NCBI GenBank assembly: GCA_903821335.1 | Contig: CAIJKV010000130.1 | Coordinates: 1-64,000 of the forward strand | Reading direction: 5' to 3' | DNA: 64,000 nucleotides | From: an uncultured beta proteobacterium | GTDB taxonomy: Bacteria > Pseudomonadota > Gammaproteobacteria > Burkholderiales > Burkholderiaceae_B | Shown here: in pieces, positions 3,966 through 57,199 of the stretch | Layout: each line of letters begins with the position of its first letter | Position numbering within the stretch: the first letter of the stretch is position 1 | The notes under the pieces: model-generated | Seen by the model: the letters and a program-made list of their open reading frames with translations, nothing else | Databases searched by the model: none | Told to the model about the DNA's origin: nothing | Program-made: the position numbers and the translations under genes

Positions 3966-4790
3966 TCAAAATCCGTTTGCGGTAAAGCCACCGTCGGCAA
4001 CCATCGCATGGCCGGTCACGAAGGCGGCGCAGTCCGAGGCCAGGAAAAGTGCCATCTCGGCAACTTCCTGCGGACTGCCCAGGCGGTTCAGCGGCGTGCG
4101 CCGGGTAATCACATCAACATCCAGAGCGCCACGATGGATCAGATCTTCAACCAGCGCCGTCTGGATATAGCCGGGACAAATCGAATTGACGCGAATGTTG
4201 TGCTCGGCCCATTCAACGGCCAGGGTCTTGCAGAGCGAGACCACGGCGGCCTTGGACGCGCAGTACGCCGCCCGCCTGGCTGCAGAAATCAGTCCGAACA
4301 TGGACGCTGTGGTCAGGATCACGCCGCCGCCCTGCGCGACCATGCGTTTTGCCGCGGCCTGTGAACAGTAAAAAACGCCTGACAAATCAATGTCGACCGC
4401 ACGCCGCCATTCAGCAGGCGTCACCTCTAGCGAAGGCTTATTCATCGACACGCCGGCATTGTTCAGCAGCACATCCACGCGCCCGAAACGGGCAACAGCT
4501 GCACTGACTGCTTGCTCGACCGCCAGGTCGTCTGTGATCGAGGCCACCACCGTTTGGACTTCCAGCGTTGGGAACGCGGCGAGCAATTCGACGCGAACCG
4601 CATCGAGACCTTCGGCATCCATGTCCAGCAGCATGAGCCGCGTGCCATGACGCGCAAACGCATGCGACATCGCGCGACCGATCCCCTTGGCAGCCCCCGT
4701 ATTGAATACGACCTTGCCTTGCAAACCAGGATAGGACGCCTGACCAAAGGGCTGCGCACCAGGATGTCCCATTGAAATCGTCACGCTCAT
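3966..4790 (-). CDS. SDR family oxidoreductase
   Basis: Classical short-chain dehydrogenase/reductase of 274 residues, with an N-terminal extension of about 20 residues before the Rossmann fold. Seen: NTGAAKGIG (30-38), NNAGVS, and the catalytic YCASK. Its ATG overlaps the GMC oxidoreductase stop as ATGA, and GGAG lies 7 nt upstream, supporting start 4790; Met7 is an alternative. The position between a GMC alcohol dehydrogenase and a 2-oxoacid dehydrogenase suggests it oxidises a hydroxylated intermediate on the way to a 2-oxoacid. That role is inferred. Confidence 0.88.
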   Translation of the reverse strand: MSVTISMGHPGAQPFGQASYPGLQGKVVFNTGAAKGIGRAMSHAFARHGTRLMLLDMDAEGLDAVRVELLAAFPTLEVQTVVASITDDLAVEQAVSAAVARFGRVDVLLNNAGVSMNKPSLEVTPAEWRRAVDIDLSGVFYCSQAAAKRMVAQGGGVILTTASMFGLISAARRAAYCASKAAVVSLCKTLAVEWAEHNIRVNSICPGYIQTALVEDLIHRGALDVDVITRRTPLNRLGSPQEVAEMALFLASDCAAFVTGHAMVADGGFTANGF

Positions 4791-6397
4791 CCCCGCACTC
4801 CAGCGGCGATTGCATCCTGCAGGATCAGGTCCGCACCGCGCTCGGCCACCATCATCACCGCCGCTTGCGTATTGCCCGACACCATCGCTGGCATCACCGA
4901 GGCATCAACCACGCGCAATCCGGCGATTCCGTTGAACCGCAACCGCGCATCCACCACCGCCTGGGCATCCGTTCCCATCCGACAGGTACCGACCGGGTGA
5001 TAAATGGTCTGACCGTTCTCGCGTGCGAAATTGAGCCACTCCACATCCGTTTGAACGGTATCGCCAGGACTCATCTCACACTCAATATAGTTGGCAAGCG
5101 CGCTGCGGCTGACCAGACGGCGCGCGATTTTCATGCCGTCCACAAGCACCTGTCGGTCGGCTTCGTTTGCCAGGAAATTGGGACGTATGGAGGGGCCCGC
5201 CATCGGGTCAGCGGACTTAATATGAATGCTGCCCTGCGAGGTGGGTCGCAGCCCCGTCACACCGATCGTCATTCCCGGGAAATTGTCGAGCTTGCGAATC
5301 GCCGCGTTGGCATAACTCGCATGCATGAAGAAATACTGCACATCGGGGGTGGCAAGTTCCGCGCGGGTTTTGACAAAACCATGAACCAACCCTGTCCCCA
5401 GCGTCAGGATTCCTGTGTGGCGGGTAAAGTATTCAAGCACCGACTGACCCAGGCGCCAGCCCTGTGCCAGTTCATTCAGTGTCTGGGTATTCCTGACCCG
5501 CCAGTTCAGTCGCGTGGCAAAGTGATCAATGTAGTTTTCACCAACCTGCGGGGCGGCGTGCACGACTGCAATCCCCAGTCTGTGCAGCAATTCTGGGTTG
5601 CCAATACCCGATAACTCCAGAATCTGCGGTGTCTGCACAGCCCCGGCGGCCATGATGACTTCACGCCCGGCAGCCACCGAAACCTCGCGTCCACCCAGGC
5701 GGTAGGTCACGCCCGTGCAACGTCCAGCCTGCACGTTCACCTTCAGTACATGGGCGCCACTGCGAACAGTCAGGTTCTTGCGCTGGCGTGCGGGGTTCAG
5801 GTAGCCATCGACGACGCTCCAGCGTTGCCCACCCTGCTGCGCGACCTGGTAATAGCCAAACCCTTCCTGACGCTCACCGTTGTAGTCATCGTTCAGTTGC
5901 TGCCCATCTTCCACCGCAGCCTGCAACAGCGCGTGAGCAATCGGGTAACGCTCAGCCACCTGTGCGATGCGCATCGGACCCGATTTTCCCCGACGGCTGC
6001 CACCTGCCATATAGCTTTCCATCTTTGTGAAATACGGTGCGACATCATGGGCCGACCAGCCTGTCGCCCCCATGCTGTCCCAGCGATCGTAGTCCTGGGG
6101 CTGACCCTGCACGTAGATCATGCCGTTAATCAGACTGGACCCCCCAAGGCCCTTGCCGCGCGGGATCGCGATCACACGATCGCGCGTGTTGCTTTCGGGT
6201 TCAGTCTCGAAACACCAGTTGTAAACGGGGTCATTCAGCAGTTTGGTAAACCCAGCCGGAATCTTGATCCACATACTGTTGGGCTCGCCGCCCGCCTCAA
6301 GCATCAGGACCGTGTGCTGACCATCGGCAGTCAGGCGATTGGCCAGTACACAGGCTGCAGTACCGCCGCCCACAATGACATAGTCATAGCTTTCCAT
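4787..6397 (-). CDS. GMC family FAD-dependent oxidoreductase (choline/alcohol dehydrogenase-like)
   Basis: Glucose-methanol-choline oxidoreductase of 536 residues that oxidises a primary or secondary alcohol with FAD. The N-terminus starts directly with the ADP-binding beta strand YDYVIVGGGTAA. The C-terminal GMC domain has the catalytic histidine in HPVGTCRMG (His467) and the paired Asn in SGNTQAA (Asn509). No signal peptide is seen, so it is cytoplasmic. I chose ATG 6397 because it overlaps the upstream gene's stop as TAATG; an ORF extended to 6475 would overlap that gene deeply. It resembles choline dehydrogenase or PEG/alkanol dehydrogenases, but no betaine genes are nearby, so choline is an unlikely substrate. 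Confidence 0.92.
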   Translation of the reverse strand: MESYDYVIVGGGTAACVLANRLTADGQHTVLMLEAGGEPNSMWIKIPAGFTKLLNDPVYNWCFETEPESNTRDRVIAIPRGKGLGGSSLINGMIYVQGQPQDYDRWDSMGATGWSAHDVAPYFTKMESYMAGGSRRGKSGPMRIAQVAERYPIAHALLQAAVEDGQQLNDDYNGERQEGFGYYQVAQQGGQRWSVVDGYLNPARQRKNLTVRSGAHVLKVNVQAGRCTGVTYRLGGREVSVAAGREVIMAAGAVQTPQILELSGIGNPELLHRLGIAVVHAAPQVGENYIDHFATRLNWRVRNTQTLNELAQGWRLGQSVLEYFTRHTGILTLGTGLVHGFVKTRAELATPDVQYFFMHASYANAAIRKLDNFPGMTIGVTGLRPTSQGSIHIKSADPMAGPSIRPNFLANEADRQVLVDGMKIARRLVSRSALANYIECEMSPGDTVQTDVEWLNFARENGQTIYHPVGTCRMGTDAQAVVDARLRFNGIAGLRVVDASVMPAMVSGNTQAAVMMVAERGADLILQDAIAAGVRG

Positions 6398-8122: not shown

Positions 8123-8896
8123 TCAGGTCAACATCCACCCACCCGCAACATCGACCACCTGACCCGTGACAAAACGGCTTTCCGGCGCAGTCAGAAAACA
8201 CGCCATCTCGGCCACTTCCTCGGGCTCGCCCAGCCGGCGCAGCGCCGTTTCCTGAATCACGGCCAGGTTGGTCTCGTTTGACGCCGTACGCATCAAGGGC
8301 GTATTGATGCGCCCCGGAGCGATGGCATTGACCGTAATGCCATGCGGGCCAAGCTCTCCAGCCAGATCGCGCGTCAAGCCTATCAGTGCGGCCTTGGTCG
8401 TACCGTAGTGCGCAGCGGTAAAGGCGATGAACGACTTGCCCGCGACGGAAGACATATTGACGATGCTGCCGAACTGGTTGCGCACCATTGCGGGCGTCAC
8501 CAGTCGCGACCAGTTGAAGGCCCCGTTCAGATTCACGTCCACGACGCGTAACCACTCGGCCGGGTCCATCTCCCAGAAATTGCTGGGCTTGCCGTGTGTC
8601 TTGGGCGAGATACCGGCGTTGTTGATCAGGGTGTCGATGTCCGCCCCGATCTGCCTGCGCAACTGCTCCAGCGCCTGCGCGCACTGTCCGTAGTCCGCCA
8701 CATCCGCCGTCGCCCAGAACAGCCGGCCGGCGTGCGCACCCAAGCTCTGTGCATGCGCGGCGAGTGCCTCGGCATTGAAGTCGACCAGCGCCACGATGGC
8801 GCCCTCCTGTGCATATTGACGCGAGATCGAGGCACCAATGCCGCTGGCCGCACCCGTTACCAACACAACACGTCCTGCATGACGATTTGGATACAT
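8123..8896 (-). CDS. SDR family oxidoreductase
   Basis: Classical SDR of 257 residues: Rossmann motif TGAASGIG near the N-terminus, NNAGIS, catalytic serine in NMSSVAG and the YGTTK pair, ending in a typical GGWMLT tail. It is the last gene of the liv-type transporter operon, 5 nt after livF, and ends 6 nt from the convergent GntR gene. Co-transcription with the importer suggests it performs an early redox step on the imported compound; this is inference. Confidence 0.9.
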   Translation of the reverse strand: MYPNRHAGRVVLVTGAASGIGASISRQYAQEGAIVALVDFNAEALAAHAQSLGAHAGRLFWATADVADYGQCAQALEQLRRQIGADIDTLINNAGISPKTHGKPSNFWEMDPAEWLRVVDVNLNGAFNWSRLVTPAMVRNQFGSIVNMSSVAGKSFIAFTAAHYGTTKAALIGLTRDLAGELGPHGITVNAIAPGRINTPLMRTASNETNLAVIQETALRRLGEPEEVAEMACFLTAPESRFVTGQVVDVAGGWMLT

Positions 8897-21390: not shown

Positions 21391-21546
21391 CAGAGATCAC
21401 CGCGCTGAGCAAATTAACGGGCGAATTGGCACCGTATACGCACATGTTAACCAGTTCGAAAACCATCCGGCGGATAAACACGGCTGGCGTCATGGTCGCC
21501 GCCCATTACATGTTCATGACCTTCACGACAGGAAGCCGACGCACCA

Positions 21547-22866
21547 CTATTTCTTGTTGCGCGCCTGGCGTGCCTCGCGATCAAGGTCCGACAGGTCGCG
21601 CAGTTTGTCGGCGATTTTGGTTTCCAGACCTCGCCCGACTGGCCGATACCAGCCTGGTTCGTTCATGCCGTCTGGCAAGTAGGTCTCACCCGCCGCGTAG
21701 GCATTGGGCTCGTCATGCGCATAACGATAGGCGTGGCCGTAGCCCAGTTCCTTCATCAGTTTGGTCGGCGCATTGCGCAGGTGGGCTGGCACGGGTTGCG
21801 ACTGGTCTTTCTTGACGAACGCCACGGCCTGGTTATAAGCCATGTACCCGGCGTTGCTCTTGGCCGCGATCGACAGATAGATCACCGCCTGCGCAAGTGC
21901 CAGTTCACCTTCGGGCGACCCCAGGCGTTCATAGGTCAGGGCCGCATCGTTGGCGATTTGCATGGCACGCGGATCGGCCAGGCCGATGTCTTCCCAGGCC
22001 ATCCTGACGATCCGGCGGGAAAGGTATTTAGGATCAGCGCCGCCATCCAGCATGCGAGTCAGCCAGTACAGCGCCGCGTCAGGATGTGAACCGCGCACCG
22101 ACTTGTGCAGAGCCGAGATCTGGTCGTAGAAATTGTCGCCGCCCTTGTCGAACCGCCGGGCATTCATGCTGAGCGCGTTTTCAACAAACTTGGAATCGAC
22201 CTGCGTCACGCCCATTGCCCCGGCGGCGGTGGCGGCCTGTTCAAGCAGATTCAGGAAACGCCGTGCATCCCCGTCTGCGTAGCCAATCAGTGTATCGAGC
22301 GCAGCCTCTTCAAAGGGTAGATCCTTCAATACCGACTTCTGCGCACGTGCAAACAGTTCATGCATTTCGTCCTCGTTGAACGACTCGAGCACATACACCT
22401 GCGCGCGCGACAACAAGGCGGAATTCACTTCGAAAGACGGGTTCTCGGTCGTCGCGCCAATGAACGTGACCAGGCCCGATTCAACAAAGGGCAACAGTGC
22501 GTCTTGCTGCGCCTTGTTGAAGCGGTGTATTTCATCCACAAACAACAAGGTCCGGCGATGGTGCTGGTCAAGCGTGAACTGGGCCTCTTCCATGGCAGCC
22601 CGGATTTCCTTGACGCCGGCAAACACGGCCGACATGGCAATAAAGGAACAATCAAACGCACGTGCGGTGAGCCGGGCCAGCGTGGTCTTACCCACGCCGG
22701 GCGGCCCCCAGAGAATCATGGAATGTGGGCGGCCCGACTCAAAAGCCAGGCGCAGCGGCTTGCCCGGCCCGAGCAGATGACGCTGACCAATCACGTCATC
22801 AAGCGTGGCCGGGCGCAAAGCCTCGGCCAGTGGAGCAATGGGTGCGGTGTTGAACAGATCAGCCAT
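21547..22866 (-). CDS. rarA: Replication-associated recombination protein A
   Basis: AAA+ ATPase (MgsA/RarA) of 439 residues acting at stalled replication forks. Walker A GPPGVGKTT (54-62), Walker B LLFVDEIHRF, and the C-terminal tetramerisation part with GYGHAYRYAHDEPNAY...YLPD are all present. It lies 6 nt after lolA in an ftsK-lolA-rarA operon, a common betaproteobacterial arrangement. Confidence 0.97.
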   Translation of the reverse strand: MADLFNTAPIAPLAEALRPATLDDVIGQRHLLGPGKPLRLAFESGRPHSMILWGPPGVGKTTLARLTARAFDCSFIAMSAVFAGVKEIRAAMEEAQFTLDQHHRRTLLFVDEIHRFNKAQQDALLPFVESGLVTFIGATTENPSFEVNSALLSRAQVYVLESFNEDEMHELFARAQKSVLKDLPFEEAALDTLIGYADGDARRFLNLLEQAATAAGAMGVTQVDSKFVENALSMNARRFDKGGDNFYDQISALHKSVRGSHPDAALYWLTRMLDGGADPKYLSRRIVRMAWEDIGLADPRAMQIANDAALTYERLGSPEGELALAQAVIYLSIAAKSNAGYMAYNQAVAFVKKDQSQPVPAHLRNAPTKLMKELGYGHAYRYAHDEPNAYAAGETYLPDGMNEPGWYRPVGRGLETKIADKLRDLSDLDREARQARNKK

Positions 22867-51066: not shown

Positions 51067-51855
51067 TCAAGGGCGCACCCCTGGGGTTTCCATCGGCATC
51101 CCCTGCGCCCGCCAATTCAAAAACAGCTCCAGTTCCAGCAATTCCTTTGCGCCAAACGCATAGGGTTCGGCACGCACACCTGCAAGACAATTGCGCAGGC
51201 GCCGCTGCAGTGACCCAACAGACTGCCATTCAAGCCGGTAAATGGGATACCCCGTCGGGTGCCCTTGCGGAATGAGGTTGCCCGCCAGTTTCTCTCCCGC
51301 TCGTTGCGCGTGACACTGCGCACATGACAAGTTGAGCTGTCCGATCCGTTGATAGAACGCCGTGCGACCCGCCTCAAGGTGGTCTTGTATTGCGGGGCTT
51401 TGCTCCACGACGATGGGCATCCCCCTGGATTGCGCGCCGACATAGACCGCAAGGGACAGCAAGGGCTTGCTCTCATACGGGAAGGCTGGTGCCTGCTGCT
51501 GGATGGTCCTGCACAGATTGAGGCGACCGTCCAGATTGGTCAGCTTACCCTCGACCATCCTGGGATAACGGGCGGCCACCCCTTTCATCGACGTCGCCGC
51601 GTCGCCGTGACAGTCCGCGCACGACAGGTTTTTAGGGCCTGCCTTGTCCTGCCACAGCACCTGGCCATCCAGCAGCCAGAAGGTGGCGGGATTCAGGCTT
51701 GGATCATCCTGCATGGCCTGCGTCGCGGGCGACATGTGCGCGTAACCGGACTGGCGCGCCGAGCCGACCTCATCCGCAGCGGCTTCATGGCCCATACCGC
51801 TCAGCAGCAAGAGGACCGTCAGTCGTGCAAGGAGCGTCGGTAGCCTGATTCGCAC
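51067..51855 (-). CDS. soxA: Sulfur-oxidation c-type cytochrome SoxA (dihaem form)
   Basis: With SoxX, SoxA oxidatively links a sulfur substrate to the Cys of the SoxYZ carrier. 262 residues from GTG 51855 (GAGG 5 nt upstream): signal peptide to about 27, two haem sites C79-A-D-C82-H83 and C178-A-Q-C181-H182, Cys115 in LNLCRT, and the active-site/haem-ligand Cys223 in RNCLAGVRAEP. Everything needed for catalysis is visible. It is the last gene of the iorA-iorB-soxXYZA operon; an ORF to 51939 overlaps soxZ and is not the start I prefer. Confidence 0.93.
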   Translation of the reverse strand: MRIRLPTLLARLTVLLLLSGMGHEAAADEVGSARQSGYAHMSPATQAMQDDPSLNPATFWLLDGQVLWQDKAGPKNLSCADCHGDAATSMKGVAARYPRMVEGKLTNLDGRLNLCRTIQQQAPAFPYESKPLLSLAVYVGAQSRGMPIVVEQSPAIQDHLEAGRTAFYQRIGQLNLSCAQCHAQRAGEKLAGNLIPQGHPTGYPIYRLEWQSVGSLQRRLRNCLAGVRAEPYAFGAKELLELELFLNWRAQGMPMETPGVRP

Positions 51856-51862
51856 TCCGGCC

Positions 51863-52192
51863 TCACGAAACTGAAAGCTGGCTCTTGGTGACGGCCAGGT
51901 AGTCGTCGTCGCCGGTCCACGTGAATTCGAGTGTGCCACTCTCGGTGGCGATGGTCGTGAAGGTAATCAGTGGGTTCGCGCCGGTCCCGGGGTGTAAATC
52001 CGCCCTGAACACTTCTTCACCGCTATAGGTGCAGACAAAAGTGCGAATGATGTCACGCGCGATGCGCTCACCTTGTTCGGAATGCCGAAAACCTGTCTCC
52101 ATATCGTGCTGGGCGATTGCGGTGATCTCGACAATGTCGCCTTGACGCGCCTGTTGCGCCATCCTGACAATGGTGCGGGACGTTTTGCTCAT
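51863..52192 (-). CDS. soxZ: Thiosulfate-oxidation carrier subunit SoxZ
   Basis: Immunoglobulin-like partner of SoxY, 109 residues, no signal peptide (it is normally exported with SoxY). ATG 52192 overlaps the soxY stop as ATGA and has GGAG 8 nt upstream. The typical SoxZ features are EITAIAQHDMETGFR near the N-terminus and the Phe-Arg-Ala/Leu stretch VFRADLHPGTGANP before the C-terminal strand FTWTGDDDYLAV. Confidence 0.93.
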   Translation of the reverse strand: MSKTSRTIVRMAQQARQGDIVEITAIAQHDMETGFRHSEQGERIARDIIRTFVCTYSGEEVFRADLHPGTGANPLITFTTIATESGTLEFTWTGDDDYLAVTKSQLSVS

Positions 52193-52638
52193 GACAGATT
52201 CTCCGTGCATGCGGAGGCTGTCACCAGTGTCTCGGCATAGCCCTGGAAGAATAAGCCATTGCTCATGTGCGCCACGGCCCAGATACGTTGTGAATCGCCG
52301 AGTCGTACTCGCGTGGTGATGTCGGCACGCCCGCAGCGTGGTCCCAGGTAAAAACTGATCACATTCGGAAGCGGGTTGCCCTCTGCCACAATGTGAATCG
52401 CCTTGACATAGTCCTCGGGCGTCATCGGGCTGTCGACCGTGACCTTGAGCACAACCAGATTGCCGTTTTCAACCAACGGCGGGATCTGCAGCGTCACCCG
52501 CCCGTTTTTAATCAGGGATGACCCGGCGATCTGCCTGATGGCCTGCGCGGCCTCGTCAGGTGTGGCACTGGACGGCTCCCATGGCGCCAGTCCGAGGGCG
52601 GCGGTCCAGGCAATGAACGCGCGTCGTTTGATCTTCAT
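52189..52638 (-). CDS. soxY: Sox carrier protein SoxY with atypical C-terminus
   Basis: Covalent substrate carrier of the Sox pathway, 149 residues. Twin-arginine signal peptide (KRRAFIAWTAALGLAP), then the SoxY fold: VENGNLVVLKVTVDSPMT, VKAIHIVAEGNPLPNVISFYLGPRCGRADITTRVRL. The canonical tail GGCGG, whose cysteine carries the substrate, is absent. The chain ends VTASACTENLS, so a cysteine (Cys144) is kept but is followed by five residues and lacks the flexible glycines. Other frames of the same DNA do not encode GGCGG, so this is not a simple frameshift. Overlaps soxX and soxZ by ATGA junctions. Confidence 0.88.
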   Translation of the reverse strand: MKIKRRAFIAWTAALGLAPWEPSSATPDEAAQAIRQIAGSSLIKNGRVTLQIPPLVENGNLVVLKVTVDSPMTPEDYVKAIHIVAEGNPLPNVISFYLGPRCGRADITTRVRLGDSQRIWAVAHMSNGLFFQGYAETLVTASACTENLS

Positions 52639-53096
52639 GATTTGAAACTCGATAAGAATGCCACGACATCCTCGATCTCTTGCGCGCTGAGAATCGTCTT
52701 GCCGGCAAACTGCGGCGCAACGTGGGTCAGATGATCGATTCGGTAGTAAGAAGGCATGATGACCCCCGGGTTGAATCGATCAGCGTCGACGATGCGCGCC
52801 CGGAGTTGTCCTGTGGAAAGTGTTGCCGCGATGGCAATCAGATCGGGTGCCAGACTTCCCTGAAAGCGTTCTTCCGGAAAAGGGACGCTGTGACAAAGAA
52901 TACATAAACCGGTTTGCCGGCTGAGGACGATCTTGCGGCCTGCCGCGGGGTCTGCGGGAACCCCGGAGAGCGATTCGAGAATCGCATCGCCCGTATACGT
53001 AACCGTTTGCGTAGCCGTTTGCGTAACCAATTGCGCAAAAAGCACCTCGGGGCCAGCCAGCCACAAACAACAAGACAGGATGGCCCCGATGCGCAT
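52635..53096 (-). CDS. soxX: Sulfur-oxidation c-type cytochrome SoxX
   Basis: Monohaem partner of SoxA, 153 residues. Signal peptide (to about 21, VLFAQ), haem site C65-I-L-C68-H69, and family sequence HSVPFPEERFQGSLAPDL and PGVIMPSYYRIDHLTHVAPQF with the distal Met. A Thr/Gln/Val-rich stretch after the signal is encoded by a 12-bp tandem repeat. ATG 53096 lies 4 nt after the molybdopterin-subunit stop with no SD, so it should be translationally coupled to that gene. Confidence 0.92.
   Translation of the reverse strand: MRIGAILSCCLWLAGPEVLFAQLVTQTATQTVTYTGDAILESLSGVPADPAAGRKIVLSRQTGLCILCHSVPFPEERFQGSLAPDLIAIAATLSTGQLRARIVDADRFNPGVIMPSYYRIDHLTHVAPQFAGKTILSAQEIEDVVAFLSSFKS
52999..53034. repeat. 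Three 12-bp tandem repeats inside soxX
   Basis: GTAACCGTTTGC, GTAGCCGTTTGC and GTAACCAATTGC follow each other without gaps. In the soxX frame they encode a four-residue repeat (TQTA/TQTV type) just after the signal peptide. Copy-number changes would stay in frame. Confidence 0.8.
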
Positions 53097-53100
53097 TTTT

Positions 53101-55293
53101 TTACACAAGCGTGATGTCGCTGTTCTTGAGCGGAACAGTACGTATTCGCTTGCCCGTCGCCCGATAAAACGCGTTCAACACTGCAGGTGCCGCCACGCAG
53201 ATGGTTGGTTCACCCACGCCGCCCCACTCCTTACCGCCACCCTGGATAATGAGGGCTTCGACCTTGGGCATCTGCGCGATCCGCATGGACGGAAAATCGT
53301 GGAAATTGGTCTGTTCGATACGTCCATCCTTGACCGTGCACTCTTCCATGAAGAGCGCAGACAAACCATAGACGAAGGAACCGGCGACCTGGCGCTTGAT
53401 TTGCGCTGGATTGACGGCGTAGCCAGGATCTGTCGCCGCCACGATCCGGTGCACCTTGACCTCTTTGCCGTCCTTGACGGAAATCTCGCAGGCTGCGGCC
53501 ACGTAACTCCCAAAGGCCTTCATTTGCGCCACGCCACGGAAGACTCCCGGCGGCGCGGGCTTGGTCCAGCCAATTCCTTGCGCCACGGCATCGAGCACGG
53601 CCAGATTACGCGGCGACTCAGCCAGGAATTTGCGACGGAACTCGACTGGATCCACCCCGGCAGCATCCGCCAGTTCATCCATGAAGCTTTCGATGAAGAC
53701 CGCGTTCTGGTTGACGTTCACACCGCGCCAGAACCCGGGCGGAATGTGTGTGTTGCGCATGGCATGGTCGATCAGCAAATTCGGGAAGGTGTAGCCAAAA
53801 CCGTGCTCGCCCCCATCAAACACGCCCTGGAACACCAGGGGATCACGTCCCTTCTGTTGCTCGACGACTGCGGGGCGCACCGAAGCGAGAATGGATTGGC
53901 CCGACAGACGCATGTGCACACCCGTCAGGTTTTTCTTGTCATCAAACGTGCCCGTCAGTTTGCACATCATGATCGGGTGGTACCGGCCCTGCGTCATGTC
54001 TTCTTCGCGCGTCCAGATCAGCTTGATCGGCACACCCGGCATTTGTTTGGCGATGTTGACTGCCTGCGTGGTGTAGTCCTGGAACGCGCCGCGACGGCCA
54101 AAACCGCCGCCCAGATTGACTTTGTATACATCGCACTTCTCGCCAGGCAGGCCCGATGCCGCAATCACAGCCGCCAGGGAAGCCTCGCCATCCTGCGTCG
54201 GCACCCAGGCCTCACAGCGCTCTGGTGTCCATTTCGCCGTGGCGTTCATGGGTTCCATTGGCGCATGGTTCAGGAATGGATAGAAATACACCGACTCCAG
54301 CTTGCTTGCCGCGTTCTTCTGGGCGGCCACGATGTCGCCCCGCTGGTTACCAACGAAGGCCTGCTGGGCCGTCAGACCCTCTTCGAGCATCGCCTTGATC
54401 GAGGCGCTCGATACCTTGGCATTCGGGCCCTCGTCCCAGACGATCGCCACCTTGTCCATCGCAGACTTGGCTTGCCAAAAGGTGTCGGCCACCACCGCAA
54501 CGGCACTGTCGCCAACTTGCACGACCTTCCTGACACCTTTCATGCCAGCGGCCTGGGTGGGATCAAAACTCTTGACCTTGCCGCCAAATACGGGGCATTC
54601 CCGGATATTGGCAATCAACATGCCGGGCAGTTTGAGATCGATGGCATAGACCTGCTTGCCCGTGACCTTATCGGCCACGCCGTCAATCCGGTCCAGTGGT
54701 TGACCGATGACTTTCCAGTCTTTCGGATCTTTCAGGGGGATCTCGGTAGGAACCGTCAATTTGGATGCGGCGACCGACATCTTGCCAAAGGTGGTCGTGC
54801 GCCCGCTGGGAGCATGGGTAATCACGCTATTGGCTGCCACGCATTGCGCGACAGGCACGCCCCACTGGTCTGCCGCAGCCTGCAACAGCATCATGCGGGC
54901 CGCTGCGCCACCTTTGCGCACATAGAGTTCGGAGGTACGGATGCCGCGGCTGCCACCGGTCGAAAACTCACCCCAGACACGATTGCGCCTGACGCTTTCG
55001 CCCGGGGTTGGGTACTCGGTCCTGACCTTCTTCCAGTCGCATTCAAGCTCCTCGGCGACCAGCTGCGCCAGGCCGGTGATGGTGCCCTGCCCCATTTCAG
55101 AGCGCACCACACGGACCACGACGGTGTCGTCGGGTTCAATCACCACCCAGGCACCAATCTCTGGCGCGGTGGTCGCGGCCTCGGCCGCATGCATGAACAG
55201 GGGAAATTGCAGGCCAAGTGCCAGGCCCGTACCCACTGCTGTCGTGCCAACAATGAACTGTCGACGTGAAGGATTGGAAACGCGTGCATTCAT
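53101..55293 (-). CDS. Xanthine dehydrogenase-family molybdopterin subunit, IorB-like, Tat-exported
   Basis: Large subunit of a molybdenum hydroxylase resembling isoquinoline 1-oxidoreductase beta chain and periplasmic aldehyde dehydrogenases, 730 residues. ATG 55293 has GAGGTGA 5-6 nt upstream; a twin-arginine signal follows (SRRQFIVGTTAVGTGLALG). Seen: VRSEMGQGTITGLAQL, LGGGFGRRGAFQDY (MoCo-binding), and the C-terminal GGVGEPT with the expected catalytic glutamate (Glu695). The enzyme hydroxylates or oxidises a heterocycle or aldehyde with water as oxygen donor. It is co-transcribed with a 2Fe-2S subunit and soxXYZA, an unusual partnership. Electrons may go to SoxXA or other cytochromes. 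Confidence 0.92.
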   Translation of the reverse strand: MNARVSNPSRRQFIVGTTAVGTGLALGLQFPLFMHAAEAATTAPEIGAWVVIEPDDTVVVRVVRSEMGQGTITGLAQLVAEELECDWKKVRTEYPTPGESVRRNRVWGEFSTGGSRGIRTSELYVRKGGAAARMMLLQAAADQWGVPVAQCVAANSVITHAPSGRTTTFGKMSVAASKLTVPTEIPLKDPKDWKVIGQPLDRIDGVADKVTGKQVYAIDLKLPGMLIANIRECPVFGGKVKSFDPTQAAGMKGVRKVVQVGDSAVAVVADTFWQAKSAMDKVAIVWDEGPNAKVSSASIKAMLEEGLTAQQAFVGNQRGDIVAAQKNAASKLESVYFYPFLNHAPMEPMNATAKWTPERCEAWVPTQDGEASLAAVIAASGLPGEKCDVYKVNLGGGFGRRGAFQDYTTQAVNIAKQMPGVPIKLIWTREEDMTQGRYHPIMMCKLTGTFDDKKNLTGVHMRLSGQSILASVRPAVVEQQKGRDPLVFQGVFDGGEHGFGYTFPNLLIDHAMRNTHIPPGFWRGVNVNQNAVFIESFMDELADAAGVDPVEFRRKFLAESPRNLAVLDAVAQGIGWTKPAPPGVFRGVAQMKAFGSYVAAACEISVKDGKEVKVHRIVAATDPGYAVNPAQIKRQVAGSFVYGLSALFMEECTVKDGRIEQTNFHDFPSMRIAQMPKVEALIIQGGGKEWGGVGEPTICVAAPAVLNAFYRATGKRIRTVPLKNSDITLV

Positions 55294-55303
55294 CTTTTTC
55301 ACC

Positions 55304-55753
55304 TCAGGCAATGGCGACGGAGTGAATGGCGGCGCGAACTTCCTGGAAAGATCCGCACCGACAAATATTGGTGATAGCCGAGTCGATGTCGGCATCGGTT
55401 GGCACCGGCTTTTCACGCAACAACGCAGTCGTCGCCATCACCATGCCACACTGGCAATAGCCACACTGCGGCACCTGGTTGTCGACCCAGGCCTGCTGGA
55501 TCTTGGTCAGCTGTCCGTCCGTGGCCAGGCCTTCGATCGTCTCGATCTTTTTGCCCGCGACCTCACTGACGGGTAGTGAACAGGATCGAATGGCCTGCCC
55601 GTCGATCAGCACCGTACAGGCGCCACAGACCGCAATGCCGCAACCGTACTTGGTTCCGGTCAAGCCAAGTTGCTCGCGAATCACCCAAAGCAAGGGTGTG
55701 GTCGGGTCAACATCGACATCGTGCGCTTTGCCGTTGACGGTAATCTGAGTCAT
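55304..55753 (-). CDS. 2Fe-2S small subunit of molybdenum hydroxylase, IorA-like
   Basis: Electron-transfer subunit of 149 residues with two [2Fe-2S] domains. The N-terminal ferredoxin-like cluster has CGIAVCGACTVLIDGQAIRSC, and the C-terminal helical cluster has CGYCQCGM and NICRCGSF. No signal peptide is seen; such subunits are exported bound to the Tat-targeted large subunit. ATG 55753 has AGGGAG 7 nt upstream. First gene of the operon, 10 nt before the large subunit. The usual FAD subunit of cytoplasmic xanthine dehydrogenases is absent, fitting a cytochrome acceptor. Confidence 0.93.
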   Translation of the reverse strand: MTQITVNGKAHDVDVDPTTPLLWVIREQLGLTGTKYGCGIAVCGACTVLIDGQAIRSCSLPVSEVAGKKIETIEGLATDGQLTKIQQAWVDNQVPQCGYCQCGMVMATTALLREKPVPTDADIDSAITNICRCGSFQEVRAAIHSVAIA

Positions 55754-55942: not shown

Positions 55943-57199
55943 ATGTCGAACACACACCCTGCCCAGCCAATGTCACCCGGTATTCCACGCAGCACCGCAG
56001 TGCGCATTTTCCTGAGTTTCGCCGGTGCCTATTTCCTTTCCTATGCGCTGCGCTCGGTCAACGCTGCACTCGCACCGCTGCTTGCCAGCGACTTGAATCT
56101 CTCAGCGGGTGAACTTGGCTGGCTGTCGTCGGCCTATTTCCTGGCCTTCGCCATGATGCAACTGCCGCTTGGCATCTCGCTTGATCGCCATGGTGCGCGT
56201 CGCACGGAATCGGCCCTGTTGCTGGTGGCGGCTGTGGGTGCGCTGATTGTCTCGCTTGGCCATTCCCTCTGGGTGCTGTCTGTCGGACGCATCCTGATTG
56301 GCATGGGGGTGGCATCGTGCCTGATGGCGCCCTACGCCTATTACCGGCGCTGCTTTCCGGCCAGGAGGCAACCTCAACTGGCAATGTGGATGCTGGTGGC
56401 GGGGACAACCGGTGCGCTGGTCGCCACCGAGCCCGCGCTGGCGCTCGCCGAGTGGATCGGATGGCGCTCCTTTTTCCTGCTGGCTGCCGTGTTGCTGGCC
56501 ATGGCCGCAGTGGCCATTTTCCTCTGGGCAGGTGACCACGACCGCCAGCCGGCGCCGTCCTCAAGCGGGCCGCAGGCCACCAGCTTTATTTCACTGATTT
56601 CGCATCCAGCCATGGTTCGCGTCATTCCCACGACGATCTTTTTATCAGGAGCGTTCGGCGCCTTGCAGTCCCTGTGGGCAGGCCCCTGGATGACCGAGGT
56701 CCTGTTGATGACACCCGAGCAAGCCGGTCGGACTCTGCTGGTTTTCAATGCCGCCTTGCTGGTGAGCTACGTCACCATGAGTGTGGTCAGCCCGTGGCTG
56801 GAAAAGCGCGGCGTGTCGCTGGCACGGCAGTCCATGGTGGCGTTCCTGTGGTTTACGGCTTGCATGCTCCTGATGATTCTCTGGCATACCCCGGGCTCCT
56901 GGGTTCTGTGGCTGGTTCTGGCACCCTGTGTGCCCGCGGTCATCCTGGTGCAGACCCAGACCGCTCTCGCCTTCCCCAGGGAGATCGCCGGGCGTATCCT
57001 GACGACATTCAACCTGGTCATGTTTACAGGAGCCTTCAGTATCCAGTGGGGGATCGGCTTGCTGGTCGATTTATTCCAGTCGACAGGCATTGCCCGCGGC
57101 CATTCCCTGATGCTTGCTTTCCTTTGTCTGGTTGTCATGCAGGTTTTCAGCCTCCTCTGGTTTTTTATCCGACGACCCGTCGTGGTCGAGAAGGACTAA
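55943..57199 (+). CDS. Major facilitator superfamily transporter
   Basis: Inner-membrane transporter of 418 residues with about twelve hydrophobic helices. The loop 2-3 motif reads GISLDRHGARR, matching the MFS signature GxxxDRxGxRR. Helices 1 and 2 (FLSFAGAYFLSYALRSVNAAL, LGWLSSAYFLAFAMMQLPLG) resemble nitrate/oligosaccharide/sugar-phosphate type MFS porters. Divergent from the molybdenum hydroxylase-sox operon, it could move that system's substrate or product. Substrate unknown. Confidence 0.9.
   Translation: MSNTHPAQPMSPGIPRSTAVRIFLSFAGAYFLSYALRSVNAALAPLLASDLNLSAGELGWLSSAYFLAFAMMQLPLGISLDRHGARRTESALLLVAAVGALIVSLGHSLWVLSVGRILIGMGVASCLMAPYAYYRRCFPARRQPQLAMWMLVAGTTGALVATEPALALAEWIGWRSFFLLAAVLLAMAAVAIFLWAGDHDRQPAPSSSGPQATSFISLISHPAMVRVIPTTIFLSGAFGALQSLWAGPWMTEVLLMTPEQAGRTLLVFNAALLVSYVTMSVVSPWLEKRGVSLARQSMVAFLWFTACMLLMILWHTPGSWVLWLVLAPCVPAVILVQTQTALAFPREIAGRILTTFNLVMFTGAFSIQWGIGLLVDLFQSTGIARGHSLMLAFLCLVVMQVFSLLWFFIRRPVVVEKD

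Follow-up and report, generated by a model that had tools for sequence, protein, structure and literature searches.

A conserved gene module joining a molybdenum hydroxylase of the xanthine dehydrogenase family to a second set of Sox proteins

The operon and the two Sox sets of the genome

What does a molybdenum (Mo) hydroxylase do in one operon with Sox proteins? SoxYZ is the textbook carrier for inorganic sulfur, and the question is raised by a locus at positions 51067-55753 of a 64,000-nucleotide stretch of DNA from an uncultured beta proteobacterium (positions 1 to 64,000 of contig CAIJKV010000130.1, assembly GCA_903821335.1), which is referred to here as the window. Six minus-strand genes lie there in the order iorA-iorB-soxX-soxY-soxZ-soxA, and the junctions in that order are 10 nt, 4 nt, an ATGA overlap, another ATGA overlap and 7 nt. 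This order and every junction had been given in an original prediction made from the DNA letters, and both match the sequence and the list of open reading frames (ORFs); the families that it named (2Fe-2S subunit, molybdopterin subunit, SoxX, SoxZ and SoxA) agree with the family profile matches. The prediction had further proposed that an organosulfur or thiol substrate is attached to SoxYZ and oxidised by the Mo enzyme without soxB or soxCD. The analysis described below shows a conserved module that points to an undescribed oxidation route for another, probably organic, sulfur compound.

The naming of the carrier as SoxY was right only in the broad sense. The protein (52189-52638, minus strand) is above the cut-off of the SoxY Pfam model (86.8 bits, cut-off 28.4) but below that of the true SoxY model TIGR04488 (85.7 bits, cut-off 125), and it is a member of TIGR04487, SoxY_para_1 (182.3 bits, cut-off 172). 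The full name of this family is "SoxY-related AACIE arm protein", and copies from Neorhizobium and Methylobacterium are already so named in their records. No papers were found for "AACIE arm protein", and as far as we found the family is named but apparently uncharacterised in the literature searched. The window protein, the tail of which is SACTENLS with Cys144, and its relatives are designated SoxY' below.

According to the ORF list and the family profiles, neither soxB nor soxCD is present in the window operon. The phrase "without soxB or soxCD" is true of the operon, but its extension to the organism is ruled out by two other contigs of the same genome. Contig C210 contains soxX-soxB, in which soxX is above its cut-off and soxB reaches 890.7 bits (cut-off 550); DsrE-like and metallohydrolase (SoxH-like) genes follow. 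Contig C228 contains soxC, a dihaem cytochrome gene in the place of soxD, soxY, soxZ and soxA. The soxC gene is cut by the contig end and is still above its cut-off, and the SoxY encoded there ends in GGCGG and scores as a true SoxY. Because the canonical sox genes lie on C210 and C228, the window operon is a second, separate Sox set beside the canonical one.

Conservation and distribution of the module

SoxY' scored above the cut-off in 25 of 32 genomes of the genus. In all 24 relatives of the source genome with such a protein, iorB-soxX-Y-Z are found in the same order, and soxA is present in 23, the 24th being cut by a contig end. The scan of named genomes, for which the best 80 of 144 relatives were used, gave soxX and soxZ at every locus, soxA at 79 and iorB at 76; three loci (L135, L136 and L154) have soxXYZA without adjoining iorAB and one (L093) is cut by a contig end. 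Since the order is kept in 24 of 24 genus relatives and iorB in 76 of 80 named loci, the arrangement is not due to chance. The named relatives belong to Polynucleobacter, Zwartia, Sheuella, Jezberella, Comamonadaceae and other betaproteobacteria, and many are lake-derived according to their name or isolate code.

Farther away, no SoxY' above the cut-off was found in 236 genomes of other genera in the same family, and the protein was present in 25 of 399 order genomes and 15 of 398 sampled phylum genomes (the window genome is counted in each). From these phylum and order matches we chose 40 distant regions, above and below the cut-off. The iorB gene is present in 29 of them, 21 with soxA and eight without; L246 has soxXYZA alone, and the remaining ten have a SoxY with a GGCGG end, nine of them adjoining soxB. 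Plasmid copies were found in Neorhizobium galegae, Methylobacterium sp. NMS14P and Roseomonas marmotae, the SoxY of the last being slightly below the TIGR04487 cut-off (155.5 against 172). The iorA-iorB-soxXYZA order that the prediction had proposed to look for thus occurs widely beyond the source genome, contrary to the possibility that it would be found in no other genome. Together, the genus, named-genome and distant-locus surveys rule out an accident of one genome, and the conserved module is widespread in many freshwater and soil bacteria of the beta- and alphaproteobacteria.

The carrier arm was compared among 125 SoxY proteins (the window, the 80 named loci, the 40 distant loci and four plasmid loci), a set which was collected with SoxY' as the query, so that the counts are not population frequencies. 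None of the 109 SoxY proteins with iorB within 4 kb ends in GGCGG, whereas all ten with soxB within the same distance do. Five with only soxA nearby also lack this end, and L228 has it with neither iorB, soxB nor soxA in the 4 kb range. Intermediate arms, with tails such as TGCG or AGCGL, occur in five units without adjoining soxXA, the genomes of which have canonical-like sox sets elsewhere. The split is clean, and the arm type of SoxY follows its partner, iorB or soxB. Bradyrhizobium diazoefficiens has two soxY genes, of which only soxY1 is described as essential for thiosulfate oxidation in passages of PMC5748708; its soxY2 is assumed here to be of the TIGR04487 type.

Genomes with the operon and without soxB had been suggested as a check, and the genus contains them. 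The soxB gene is above the cut-off in 17 of the 25 operon-bearing genomes; in G259 a fragment was found (256.5 bits, cut-off 550), and the other seven (G237, G239, G253, G256, G260, G261 and G265) gave no match above the cut-off. These seven are 83 to 100% complete (98 and 100% for G237 and G239), and single absences may be gaps. Weak matches (54 to 72 bits) occur in three of them, and weak matches are also given by 10 of the 14 control genomes. Apparently the seven include two cultured isolates, Sheuella amnicola and Jezberella montanilacus. Seven genomes of the genus lack the operon; soxB is present in six of these and likewise absent from one. No soxB match was seen near the module at any of the 80 named loci, in stretches that reached up to 9 kb to either side. 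The module therefore seems not to need soxB, yet usually shares its genome with it.

A further component, flavocytochrome c sulfide dehydrogenase (FCSD, FccAB), is encoded at many loci. Its gene occupies one of two positions. Ten distant loci (L210-L218 and L231) and two of the plasmids, those of Neorhizobium and Methylobacterium, carry it between the iorB and soxX genes; it follows soxA in Roseomonas, at L230 and at 17 of the 80 named loci. It is often accompanied by a gene for a small cytochrome c. The five flavoproteins of iorB-bearing loci that were scored (L212, L215, L231, L251 and L254) are all above the FCSD cut-offs. That of L251 matches the flavin subunit of a sulfide dehydrogenase in the PDB (8.4e-129) and keeps two cysteines, which we take to be the redox pair. 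FCSD is present somewhere in each of the 31 other genomes of the genus. The predicted FCSD ties the module to sulfur chemistry.

Subunits and active-site residues

Residues were checked in 35 special-type loci, of which 33 gave complete IorA and IorB and all 35 gave SoxX, SoxY', SoxZ and SoxA; L246 has no adjoining iorB. The roles of the IorAB, SoxX, SoxA and SoxY motifs considered here are those generally ascribed to them. IorA (55304-55753, minus strand), the [2Fe-2S] subunit of a Mo hydroxylase of the xanthine dehydrogenase family, is above the cut-offs of Fer2 and Fer2_2, and among the eight cysteines of its two cluster motifs seven are invariant in the 33 relatives and C38 is nearly so. 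IorB (53101-55293, minus strand), the molybdopterin subunit, is above the cut-offs of MoCoBD_1 and MoCoBD_2; it begins with a signal of the twin-arginine translocation (Tat) type, SRRQF, as read by eye, and GGGFGR and E695 of the GVGEP motif are invariant in the same relatives. The predicted structure of IorB has a mean predicted local distance difference test (pLDDT) value of 85, and its best match in the PDB by both sequence and fold is chain C of 8gy3, an aldehyde dehydrogenase of Gluconobacter, with 27% identity and a template modelling (TM) score of 0.84. The two subunits, the conserved Mo-site motifs and this fold match uphold the earlier assignment to the xanthine dehydrogenase family, and none of the listed equivalog models, such as XdhA and PaoC, comes near its cut-off with the window proteins.

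SoxX (52635-53096, minus strand), the monohaem cytochrome of SoxXA with 153 residues, scored 69.7 bits against TIGR04485 (cut-off 61) and matches SoxX in the PDB (9.7e-19). Its residues C65, C68, H69 and M114 are invariant in the 35 loci. SoxA (51067-51855, minus strand), a dihaem protein of 262 residues with a GTG start, scored 215.3 against TIGR04484 (cut-off 110) and matches SoxA of 1h31 (3.2e-41). Both of its CXXCH motifs (C79/C82/H83 and C178/C181/H182), C115 and C223 are invariant in the 35 loci, as is Cys144 in the arm of SoxY'. By alignment count, C223 corresponds to residue 222 of chain A of 1h31, presumably the active-site cysteine. Judged by these residues, SoxXA looks fully competent. 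The carrier partner SoxZ (51863-52192, minus strand) is above the cut-off of its Pfam model PF08770 (78.7 bits, cut-off 25) and slightly below that of TIGR04490 (70.6 bits, cut-off 76).

Proposed function of the module

By sequence, the module thus has a complete SoxXA, a SoxYZ with one arm cysteine and a complete Mo hydroxylase with an export signal, conserved together. A sulfur substrate other than thiosulfate is plausible because the carrier arm differs and a sulfide dehydrogenase flavoprotein joins many loci; to this extent the organosulfur proposal of the original prediction stands, although its premise of an organism without soxB and soxC does not. The reading that we find most likely, though it is a tentative one, is that the operon provides a second Sox-type carrier pathway, parallel to and separate from thiosulfate oxidation, in which an organic thiol would be loaded and IorAB would oxidise it. 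Mo enzymes of the xanthine dehydrogenase family act mostly on carbon. This preference speaks for an organic thiol, as does the point that SoxB would not be needed to free a product hydroxylated at the carbon beside the sulfur.

In such a pathway, SoxXA would form a mixed disulfide between Cys144 of SoxY' and a sulfur substrate, most probably a small organic thiol (RCH2-SH), by oxidative coupling, and IorAB would then oxidise the carrier-bound group at the carbon adjoining the sulfur, with oxygen from water. The carbonyl product would leave and the sulfane would stay on SoxY', to be removed by FccAB or by the ordinary Sox enzymes of the cell. The electrons of all steps may pass to c-type cytochromes, and the altered arm may separate the SoxY' carrier from SoxB and SoxCD. 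The more specific claim, that C-S cleavage of organic thiols on SoxY'Z by a Mo hydroxylase, with FccAB taking the sulfur, is common in freshwater bacterioplankton (Polynucleobacter, Zwartia and Comamonadaceae) and in several alphaproteobacterial families, is possible but doubtful.

Several points weigh against an organic thiol pathway. We know of no enzyme of the xanthine dehydrogenase family that hydroxylates the sulfur-bonded carbon of a group attached to a protein. Among 50 of the 80 genomes of the named loci, 46 have soxB above the cut-off, and with most operon-bearing genomes having soxB the carrier could feed the ordinary Sox system. FCSD is not encoded in the window operon and none was found in the source genome, the assembly of which is 94.7% complete; moreover, the stretches fetched for 63 of the 80 named loci show no FCSD, and it is also found at canonical sites, in five of the ten GGCGG loci (L220, L221, L222, L227 and L228). 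Finally, IorB relatives with 58-63% identity are located on Methylosinus and rhizobial plasmids without sox genes nearby.

The inorganic counterpart of this proposal is that IorAB replaces SoxCD and oxidises an inorganic sulfane (SoxY'-S-SH) loaded by SoxXA from thiosulfate or sulfide. Except for SoxB and the Mo enzyme, the gene set is that of Sox, SoxXA looks competent by sequence, and the FCSD genes adjoin both the module and canonical clusters, all of which would fit. We nevertheless regard it as distinctly unlikely: a sulfate formed on the carrier would lack its known route of release where soxB is missing, as in seven of 25 genomes, such a replacement is unneeded in genomes with their own soxC, including the source genome, and to our knowledge the sulfur atom is no target of this Mo family.

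The sox-free IorB relatives bear on the partner of the enzyme. They adjoin genes for cytochrome c, a multihaem cytochrome or XdhC; on three Sinorhizobium plasmids iorB is preceded by a c-type cytochrome gene and iorA. An unannotated locus, L261, had no sox match either. The Methylosinus trichosporium plasmid locus L259 (2233-9160) carries genes for an arylsulfatase and a multihaem cytochrome c together with iorA and iorB, without sox genes. In a tree of IorB, the constraint that the sox-linked proteins form one clean clade was rejected (approximately unbiased test, p-AU 2.9e-7), a value that leans on one poor row, L263, whose gene contains nine stops in translation and whose branch is very long. 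Linkage to sox changes at least three times on the tree that includes the sox-free plasmid rows, and only once when the five of them are left out. The predicted IorAB enzyme family is broader than the module, since close sox-free relatives exist and the linked ones do not form one clade.

The original prediction had offered as an alternative that the Mo enzyme uses SoxXA only as electron acceptor, and these relatives lend it some weight. On this view IorAB would be a standard oxidoreductase of aldehydes or heterocycles in the periplasm, SoxXA would serve mainly as its electron acceptor in place of the cytochrome c found with the relatives, and SoxYZ would be present for another reason, such as scavenging of sulfur species. 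The best sequence and fold match of IorB is the Gluconobacter aldehyde dehydrogenase, a membrane-bound enzyme which we take to be cytochrome-linked, and the relatives that follow a c-type cytochrome gene (Sinorhizobium) or adjoin a multihaem one (Methylosinus) agree with this. However, it leaves unexplained the kept SoxYZ with its invariant arm cysteine, the iorAB-soxYZ units without adjoining soxXA, and FccAB, and the invariant cysteine at the active-site place of SoxA would be superfluous for plain electron transfer. We consider the electron-acceptor role unlikely, and on these grounds we reject SoxXA as an electron sink as the sole explanation.

XdhC-type genes adjoin both the sox-free relatives and the module itself (L215-L218). 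Xanthine dehydrogenase-family Mo enzymes need a labile Mo=S ligand, which XdhC-type proteins supply or repair in the cytoplasm. Conceivably, SoxXA and SoxYZ service the Mo enzyme in the periplasm, either by using a SoxY' persulfide to supply or repair Mo=S or by shielding it from reactive sulfur. The export signal of IorB combined with this requirement, and the direct adjacency of carrier and Mo enzyme in the iorAB-soxYZ units, would agree with such a function. A protective role is proposed for SoxYZ beside methanol dehydrogenase in passages of PMC11237559. With XdhC-type genes already at hand and FccAB left unexplained, however, servicing of the Mo enzyme appears highly improbable.

In some genomes the module is split. 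All four checked genomes with soxXYZA but no adjoining iorAB have an iorB relative elsewhere (51-58% identical), and all eight checked genomes with iorAB-soxYZ but no adjoining soxXA have soxA above the cut-off elsewhere; in three of the eight, one soxA copy is within a second special-type soxXYZA set. It might be supposed that the neighbours are merely co-regulated, the second Sox set being used under the same conditions as the formation or removal of some unrelated metabolite by IorAB. An operon may bring together co-regulated genes of unrelated function, as argued in part of PMC11237559, and soxXYZA persists without adjoining iorAB in L135, L136, L154 and L246. But the pairing persists in beta- and alphaproteobacteria, the checked split genomes keep both halves, and the type of arm goes with the neighbouring gene, iorB or soxB, which makes mere co-regulation quite improbable. 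At L135, a Polynucleobacter locus without iorAB, a 99-base iorA-like stretch (8300-8398) lies directly before soxX and is possibly a deletion relic.

Some genomes have more than one iorAB pair. A second pair is located directly upstream of the operon in eight of 24 genus relatives and seven of 80 named loci, which suggests that several Mo enzymes may share one carrier. The source genome also has a second iorA-iorB pair of the same family, on contig C315 (8107-10838 of the fetched stretch L018), and no sox match was found beside it within this 13 kb stretch; it is the counterpart of this pair that adjoins the operon upstream in several relatives. In the same stretch, about 2 kb from the second pair of the source genome, a cytochrome b561-type gene is followed by a Mo gene of the sulfite oxidase fold (Oxidored_molyb, MsrP-like; 4580-5943).

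Relation to known systems

The module resembles canonical Sox (for general background, PMC5336275 in part) in its SoxXA, its SoxYZ, the covalent-carrier logic of one arm cysteine and, at some loci, a nearby FCSD. It differs in the absence of SoxB and SoxCD from the unit, in an ACTE-like arm instead of GGCGG, in a Mo enzyme of the xanthine dehydrogenase family, and in its occurrence in some genomes without soxB above the cut-off. The window SoxY belongs by score to TIGR04487, a family whose name refers neither to the linked Mo enzyme nor to FCSD. A SoxY-type carrier is likewise tied to a dehydrogenase of carbon compounds in TIGR04557, the quinoprotein dehydrogenase-associated SoxYZ-like carrier; the window proteins fall outside this family, with SoxY at 52.8 bits and SoxZ at 28.1 bits against a cut-off of 140, and are encoded by separate genes. 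Divergent SoxY proteins with alcohol and methanol dehydrogenases are discussed in passages of PMC11237559, where SoxYZ-S2/S4 are fused SoxYZ proteins beside pyrroloquinoline quinone (PQQ) alcohol or methanol dehydrogenases, whereas in the present module SoxY and SoxZ are separate proteins, accompanied by SoxXA and a Mo hydroxylase. Term searches of the main text of that paper gave no match for xanthine, isoquinoline or molybd-.

IorAB-type enzymes such as that of Gluconobacter (8gy3) likewise consist of 2Fe-2S and Mo subunits; the window operon has no cytochrome gene of its own for them and is linked to Sox proteins instead. SAR324 has a similarly incomplete sox setting, in which SoxY and SoxZ flank FCSD and other sox genes are missing; passages of PMC4782131 on it mention no adjoining Mo hydroxylase, and an isoquinoline 1-oxidoreductase is mentioned separately. 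The four-gene SOX cluster Pnuc_1154-1157 of Polynucleobacter asymbioticus QLW-P1DMWA-1, described in part of PMC3308952 as inorganic sulfur oxidation genes with no mention there of a Mo enzyme, is probably the sox part of the module. The trait itself was read from the sox genes and was unconfirmed in the strain studied, according to the same passages. No description of a linked iorAB-soxXYZA module was found in the literature searched, among the matches listed, most subscription papers lying outside this scope.

A conserved unit in which the carrier has another arm and is joined by a SoxXA of its own and by a Mo enzyme from a different family, and which also occurs in genomes without soxB above the cut-off, suggests that the carrier principle has been reused for another substrate. 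The use of soxXYZA as a marker of thiosulfate oxidation in metagenomes could mislead for module-bearing genomes of this kind. Cultured strains with the operon and without soxB above the cut-off make the function directly testable.

Neighbouring genes and minor observations

Genes for tRNA-Cys and tRNA-Gly lie immediately beyond soxA. On the other side, a major facilitator superfamily (MFS) transporter gene (window 55943-57199) is divergent from iorA, and an MFS transporter 64% identical to it is found at the corresponding position in L050; it could serve the pathway of the operon. Two records titled Bordetella parapertussis (L079 and L112) carry the operon, and their titles look like those of mislabelled environmental metagenome-assembled genomes. 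L133 (iorA and soxA) and L250 (iorB) match in two pieces each, which suggests frameshifts or assembly errors. On the Methylobacterium plasmid L251, some 8 kb separate the module from mddA (21413-22147), which encodes methanethiol S-methyltransferase, has two genes for glutathione S-transferases near it and is a possible hint at the substrate.

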